From Terriglobia bacterium (GTDB taxonomy: Bacteria > Acidobacteriota > Terriglobia > Terriglobales > SCQP01), in contig JAJPKR010000024.1 in NCBI GenBank assembly GCA_021323595.1, forward strand, positions 1 to 42,004: a stretch of 42,004 nt of DNA, in the 5' to 3' direction. Positions 41,053-42,004 of this stretch are shown here, piece after piece (the stretch's first letter is position 1; each line of letters begins with the position of its first letter). The notes under the pieces were generated by a model. That model saw nothing but the letters and a program-made list of their open reading frames with translations, was not told the DNA's origin and made no database searches. The position numbers were made by a program, and so were the translations under genes.

Positions 41053-41774
41053 CCCGCGCCGGTGCCCGCTCCTGCACCCCAAGCGGCGGAACGAGCCGCC
41101 TCGCGAACGCCGCGTCGCTCTTGCCGGCCCGAGACGGCGCCCGTCGCCGCGTCTGATGACGGTGAGACCACCCCGCGCAGCTTACGCGGCAGAGTTGGAG
41201 ACGAAAGCGCCGTTAAGTCAATCAGTTAGCCGGGGCGAGCGGGGCTGATACGCTGCTCAAAAATGGTCTCCTGGTCGAAAGTACAGGTCAACGCTGGGGT
41301 TGCGGCGGCGGGCGAGACGGGAGACCTAACGCATTGGGGCGCTGCAACTTACAGGTGGTGGTCGGCCCCGCGCAAAAGGCTCGCGCTGTTAAGCTTCCCA
41401 ACGTGGGAAGCCTAAAGAGGGGCCACCCCTCAGGAGGGGATGCCGGCCACGCGCAAGACGGCGAACCCCTCCTGGACCTGCACGCGGTTAGGGCGGCGGG
41501 ATAAGTTCGATTGTCAAACAGCGGCGGGTCACCGCGAAATACGCGGCCCGCGGGGGCGACCCCTGGGGGGCCCCAAAGGTAGGATTCCGTTCGGCCGGGC
41601 GGAGTTGCCCGAAGCTGGCGCCATCGCGGCGGCTTTGCCGCGCGTGCGGGAGGCAAGCGCGGCCGCGCACGGCGCGCACGCGGCGGCTGACGCTATCGCG
41701 AACGATCCTCTTCGGCCGCTGCAGACGCGGCGAAGCGTTGGAAAATTCGGGGCGCGAGGCGCACGCGCTGTCCG
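41053..41774. other. 722-bp non-coding region rich in inverted repeats; candidate structured RNA
   Basis: No convincing gene lies here and its composition differs from the flanks. Hairpins are dense: GGTG-AGAC-CACC (41161-41172); CCGCG-CAGCTTA-CGCGG (41173-41189); CCTG...CAGG (41270-41287); GCTTCCCA-ACG-TGGGAAGC (41393-41411); GAGGGG-CCA-CCCCTC (41417-41431); AGGAGGGG/CCCCTCCT (41432-41439 with 41466-41473) enclosing GCCG/CGGC; CCGCG-AAATA-CGCGG (41532-41546). CCTAACGC (41325-41332) pairs with 41484-41492 (one bulge) and closes a branch around three of them. GGTCTCC/GGAGACC (41265-41271 with 41320-41326) crosses GTTGCGGC/GCTGCAAC (41299-41306 with 41341-41348), a possible pseudoknot. Strand is unknown. 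It does not show RNase P, tmRNA, 5S or tRNA signatures. Confidence 0.5.
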
Positions 41775-42004
41775 ATGGCGGGCATGGGCTTTCCGCTGAA
41801 CGCCTCCTTCCGGCCTTACTTGGTCCTGCGCAACGCCACCGGCCGCGCGCTGCCGGTGGCGCTAAGATTGAATTGGATGGAGGGGGAGGCGCCACGCACG
41901 CTGCCTCTTCCGACTCAAGTGCTGGCGCCCGCGGCAACCCGGCGCGTGCATCTGGGCCAGTTCATGGACCGTGCCGGGCTCGGGGATTTCGACGGCAGCG
42001 TCAA
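41775..42004 (+). CDS. Gene of unknown function, 5' part only
   Basis: The frame is open to the window edge from ATG at 41775 (76 codons visible; an alternative ATG is at 41784). It reads FRPYLVLRNATGRALPVALR, WMEGEAPRTLPLPTQVLAPA and RRVHLGQF...GLGDFDGS. The layout of short beta strands with L.LRN.T and LP...L.P...R.V.LG resembles repeat units of secreted acidobacterial proteins. There is no signal peptide and no Shine-Dalgarno at this start, and the frame is open upstream only to 41691, so it may be a 5'-truncated remnant or have a different start. Confidence that the frame is coding is moderate. Confidence 0.5.
   Translation, partial: MAGMGFPLNASFRPYLVLRNATGRALPVALRLNWMEGEAPRTLPLPTQVLAPAATRRVHLGQFMDRAGLGDFDGSV

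Follow-up and report, generated by a model that had tools for sequence, protein, structure and literature searches.

Most work on boxA antitermination concerns rRNA operons, along with a small number of mRNA leaders; CRISPR arrays can also have boxA leaders. REP/BIME, BOX, and ERIC are examples of modular, palindromic repeats that lie dispersed between genes in many copies per genome. In rRNA operons, the 16S leader and the 16S-23S spacer are known boxA antiterminator sites, and the rrn sites have the order boxB-boxA-boxC (PMC10250234). A gamma-proteobacterial boxA consensus is GYTCTTTAANA, and boxA also occurs outside rRNA, in the leader of suhB and at further sites predicted as targets (PMC5725501). 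Among RNA genes, LhrC is a multicopy sRNA family (PMC4132741).

The window, i.e., the whole 42,004-nucleotide stretch of Terriglobia bacterium DNA that was analyzed, contains an element at positions 41164 to 41613 of the minus strand (read from 41613 to 41164), delimited by BLAST and profile matches to its dispersed copies. Like the rrn nut-like site, the element has a GC hairpin and then a boxA, the 13-mer being identical in the rrn operons of relatives, and it has a further leader hairpin in common with some 16S leaders. Unlike that site, it has no rRNA after boxA; a hairpin ~36 nt past boxA and a 164-nt body stand in place of 16S, and there are ~23 dispersed, non-coding copies of ~340-450 bp. 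The suhB leader and the boxA of CRISPR arrays also employ an rRNA-type boxA outside rRNA operons, whereas the element is multicopy and non-coding and has no consistent downstream gene. As with REP/BIME, BOX, and ERIC, it is intergenic, modular, palindromic, and multicopy in one genome, but it is longer and possesses a promoter-like block, a boxA, and a length-constrained body. LhrC resembles it in consisting of paralogous RNA genes in one genome (here predicted from sequence), yet the copies described here are more numerous, longer, and far more diverged, and they start with boxA.

On the plus strand, the sequence of the element's most conserved block is TTGTCAAACAGCG. Reverse-complemented, it becomes CGCTGTTTGACAA (positions 41511-41523, minus strand), which is the boxA of the rrn leader or 16S-23S spacer of relatives and is unchanged or almost unchanged in 18 copies. 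We found CGCTGTTTGACAA either ahead of 16S or within the 16S-23S spacer in G001, G002, G006, G007, and G010, and also in a matching leader of G003; the genera concerned are g2 and g3 for the 16S leader or spacer and g4 for the matching leader. The boxA identity is judged against these rrn operons of relatives because the host assembly contains no 16S rRNA, so that its own rrn boxA is absent from the comparison. The 16S leaders of relatives further contain the GGCCCCCCAGGGG hairpin or AATCCTACTT, which they have in common with the elements. Beyond boxA, the likeness to leaders is modest for most relatives, with a mean z of 3.1 for the G006 leader, 1.1-1.7 for other 16S leaders, and ~0 for 23S spacers. 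In the hairpin that follows boxA, wobble changes at three loci (L045, L051, and L052) give G.U pairs on the minus strand only and A.C on the plus strand. Because boxA points in this direction and the wobbles pair only there, we infer that the minus strand is the RNA strand; the plus strand, on which the helices had initially been read, is unsupported as such.

Read on the minus strand, the element begins with a conserved promoter-like block (41580-41610; alignments A1 and A3) composed of GGGCAAC (41610-41604) and AATCCTA (41586-41580). Its pattern, CAAC-N18-AT, recurs in genera g3 and g6, there at single loci. This block may well serve as a promoter; in the window copy, we found neither a sigma-70 promoter match nor a clear terminator. 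Two GC hairpins follow, GGGGCCCCCCAGGGGTCGCCCC at 41553-41575, whose core is the GGCCCCCCAGGGG hairpin of the 16S leaders, and another at 41521-41551, which the alignment of copies places directly before boxA, where rrn sites have boxB. At 41433-41472, 38 nt after boxA, lies a terminator-like or RNase III-like hairpin (GGAGGGG...CCCCTCC). It has 11 bp in most copies, begins 33-41 nt past boxA, and varies in loop length. Its two arms covary: 93% of cells are paired, three pairs are changed on both sides, and none of 500 shuffles was as good. The body (41270-41433) alternates conserved blocks with variable spacers, and although the copies have diverged heavily, 11 of 14 keep a body length of exactly 164 nt. 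Within it are inverted TCAACA/TGTTGA repeats, held at a constant distance of ~100 bp, and several TTGAC-like blocks, and it ends in a 3' hairpin, CCTGTACTTTCGACCAGG (CCTG...CAGG, 41270-41287), that is seen in the alignment of copies. Many copies continue into another domain, which GGAGACCA and TGGTCTCC close, with a helix of 8-13 bp in the eight GGAGACCA-bearing copies of the alignment. In the window copy, this optional domain spans 41164-41270 and is closed by GAGACCATTTT/GGGGTGGTCTC; its interior is variable, and a second subfamily lacks it. Compensatory changes, present in the hairpin after boxA, are suggested for the 3' domain and are few in the body. A REP-like palindrome, GGCAGGCAGGAATGCCTGCCCCAC, is repeated beside the promoter end of one subfamily (L041, L047, and L061).

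Every frame is closed in at least one copy, and the body has neither codon phase nor three-base periodicity, in agreement with the initial annotation, which had held that no protein frame explains the region. A candidate short protein encoded by the body (WSKVQVN...LAVLSFPTGG) was rejected: stop codons interrupt it in 6 of the 11 copies aligned, and codon phase is lacking. The open frame at 41775-42004 of the window, which begins MAGMGFPLNASFRPYLVLRN and is cut by the contig end, has no Pfam match.

Our favored reading, at slightly better than even odds, is that the element belongs to a family of non-coding RNA genes that has been amplified in one lineage and whose members begin with an antitermination segment resembling an rRNA leader. 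An RNA made from the minus strand would begin near 41580, and its initial ~70-100 nt would play the part of such a leader, in which the hairpin at the boxB position and boxA would recruit NusB/S10 (NusE) and partners. Polymerase would thereby withstand Rho while producing an untranslated RNA, proceeding through the covarying hairpin into the length-constrained 164-nt body and, in one subfamily, through the extra closed domain as well. The transcript would extend no further than ~41164, in convergent orientation to the 3' end of ftsK. Both transcription and antitermination are predictions drawn from the sequence. As a first guess, the body might act as a stable structured RNA, its genes having spread as small non-autonomous units. 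We raise only tentatively, as a rather doubtful possibility, that a family of RNA genes, whether selfish or functional, spread through one lineage by imitating the rRNA leader and using the rRNA antitermination machinery. If the family is real, it would mean that antitermination is used, or exploited, for untranslated RNAs other than rRNA, and it would add an RNA family missing from Rfam, discovered through paralogs in one genome.

The region between ftsK and the next gene had been proposed to hold an unassigned structured RNA, on the strength of nested and crossing helices thought to exceed chance. That proposal survives in outline, given that there is no Rfam family, no coding signal, one covarying hairpin, and many copies, but the strand, the extent, and the helices are different. 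The complementary segments are present in the window copy: CCTAACGC at 41325-41332 with 41484-41492, GGTCTCC at 41265-41271 with GGAGACC at 41320-41326, and 41299-41306 with 41341-41348. All three, the long-range helix and the two crossing ones, failed the comparative test because the partner positions (41484-41492, 41320-41326, and 41341-41348, respectively) shift between copies. For GGTCTC (41265-41270), conservation points to a different partner, GAGACC (41164-41169), and other copies retain this arrangement. Relative to dinucleotide shuffles, the region's fold is more stable, though only moderately (z of -2.67 on the plus strand and -2.21 on the minus strand); across homologous copies, the minus-strand z ranges from -5.1 to +0.7. 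What clearly exceeds chance is how often the entire unit recurs.

This repetition was apparent throughout the host genome, which comprises 3.55 Mb in 65 contigs. BLAST with positions 41053-41775 returned 49 pieces; the top matches have 67-89% identity and reach ~360 bases in length. From the genome, 27 regions were extracted and aligned for comparison of the copies. A profile of the boxA module (R1) gave 24 matches at E ≤ 0.01, of which we accept 23 as convincing, and a body profile (R3) found 20 copies. Pairwise identity is 51-84% (mean 63%) among the 16 copies that can be aligned from the promoter block to the 3' hairpin. The copies are mostly intergenic and have unrelated neighbor genes. 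In close copies, similarity ends near GGGGGAGACCA, a sharp left boundary beyond which the flanks are unrelated. Some copies are partly deleted. Contig ends fall inside the element in C43, C46, C54, and C26, apparently at the same point, and thus suggest near-identical, recent copies that break the assembly. A tRNA gene (L062:1769-1855), the sole Rfam match, directly adjoins the C2 copy as a neighbor.

The element boundaries suggest a spread as a mobile-like unit, an option that the initial annotation had listed and that fits the many dispersed copies. Dispersal, unrelated flanks, partial deletions, and the assembly breaks would also be expected if the element were a mobile, non-autonomous DNA repeat of the MITE-like or BOX/REP-like kind, in which case the boxA-like block and hairpins would be passengers or borrowed and there would be no functional RNA. 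We consider this unlikely, though worth serious attention. Some blocks are almost invariant between otherwise diverged copies, beside highly variable spacers, and the body length is free of indels, a pattern that speaks for selection on each copy, now or recently, and not for neutral decay. Moreover, no helper gene was found among those sought in the host genome (RVT_1 and TnpB).

A second alternative would take the element as DNA, an array of protein-binding sites at fixed spacing, e.g., a chromosome-organizing or recombination site. The body might act as DNA because covariation in its middle is scarce and its folding energies are only modestly low. RNAalifold likewise found few supported pairs in the body, and the fixed 164-bp length, the inverted repeats at constant distance, and a density of ~1 copy per 150 kb would all suit such an array. 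We nevertheless regard it as improbable: the hairpin after boxA has compensatory changes, wobbles specific to one strand, and loops of varying length, and the boxA identity likewise speaks against it.

A 5' leader that uses boxA to regulate the next co-directional gene has precedent, as boxA is known upstream of single genes (PMC5725501), and two copies are immediately followed by QueD- and RsmG-type genes. Against this, the nearest gene ahead is convergent in ~14 of 23 copies, including that in the window, and the co-directional genes have no common function; such a leader is therefore very improbable. Least probable, and contradicted, are a group II intron, an IS200/IS605 omega-RNA, or a similar RNA of a known mobile system: GTTAAGTCAA and CTGATACG of the window copy, which resemble domain I motifs of group II introns, are not kept in other copies, the host genome has no match to the reverse transcriptase (RVT_1) or TnpB profiles, and no Rfam intron or HEARO matched the window and 20 further loci, leaving the intron-like origin initially suggested unsupported.

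The family of boxA-headed RNA genes that we favor appears confined to one lineage. The initial annotation had been unable to match the region to several known RNAs, and Rfam 15 gave no family for the window and 20 further loci, whether above the gathering threshold or permissively. The check initially proposed, for homologous copies in related genomes, fails for the body, whose copies are paralogs inside one genome. The query (41053-41775) had no comparable match in 100 relatives, nor did the body profile match anything in 13 other genomes of the host's taxonomic family. The boxA-module profile found no other member in 396 genomes of the phylum (E of 1e-4, strict filters), and the boxA-module pattern was found in none of 84,980 species genomes or viral contigs. 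Body-pattern matches were absent from viral contigs, and the two among the 84,980 genomes were rejected, as they lie in coding-like sequence with the rest of the element missing. The element was not found in plasmids and phages, and we found no description of the family in the literature.

Related promoter-boxA modules followed by a hairpin occur at single loci in G002, G007, G010, and G005, and the boxA module, as judged by sequence, has single-locus relatives in two sister genera. In G005, the module (L066:1507-1700) consists of promoter-boxA and then a GC hairpin with TTT, and it lies just upstream of a gene that, by eye, we take to encode an EngA/Der-like GTPase. Repeats found with L067 in genus g3 were set aside because they belong mainly to a separate ATGTTGCAT...ATGCAACAT palindrome family. 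Genus g3 (G002, G007, and G010) has its own dispersed palindromic element of ~60 bp, AAATGTTGCATTTAAG...TGAAAACAAAG...ATGCAACATG, at many loci; the palindrome loci of this genus are L129-L136, L138, L140, and L142-L144.
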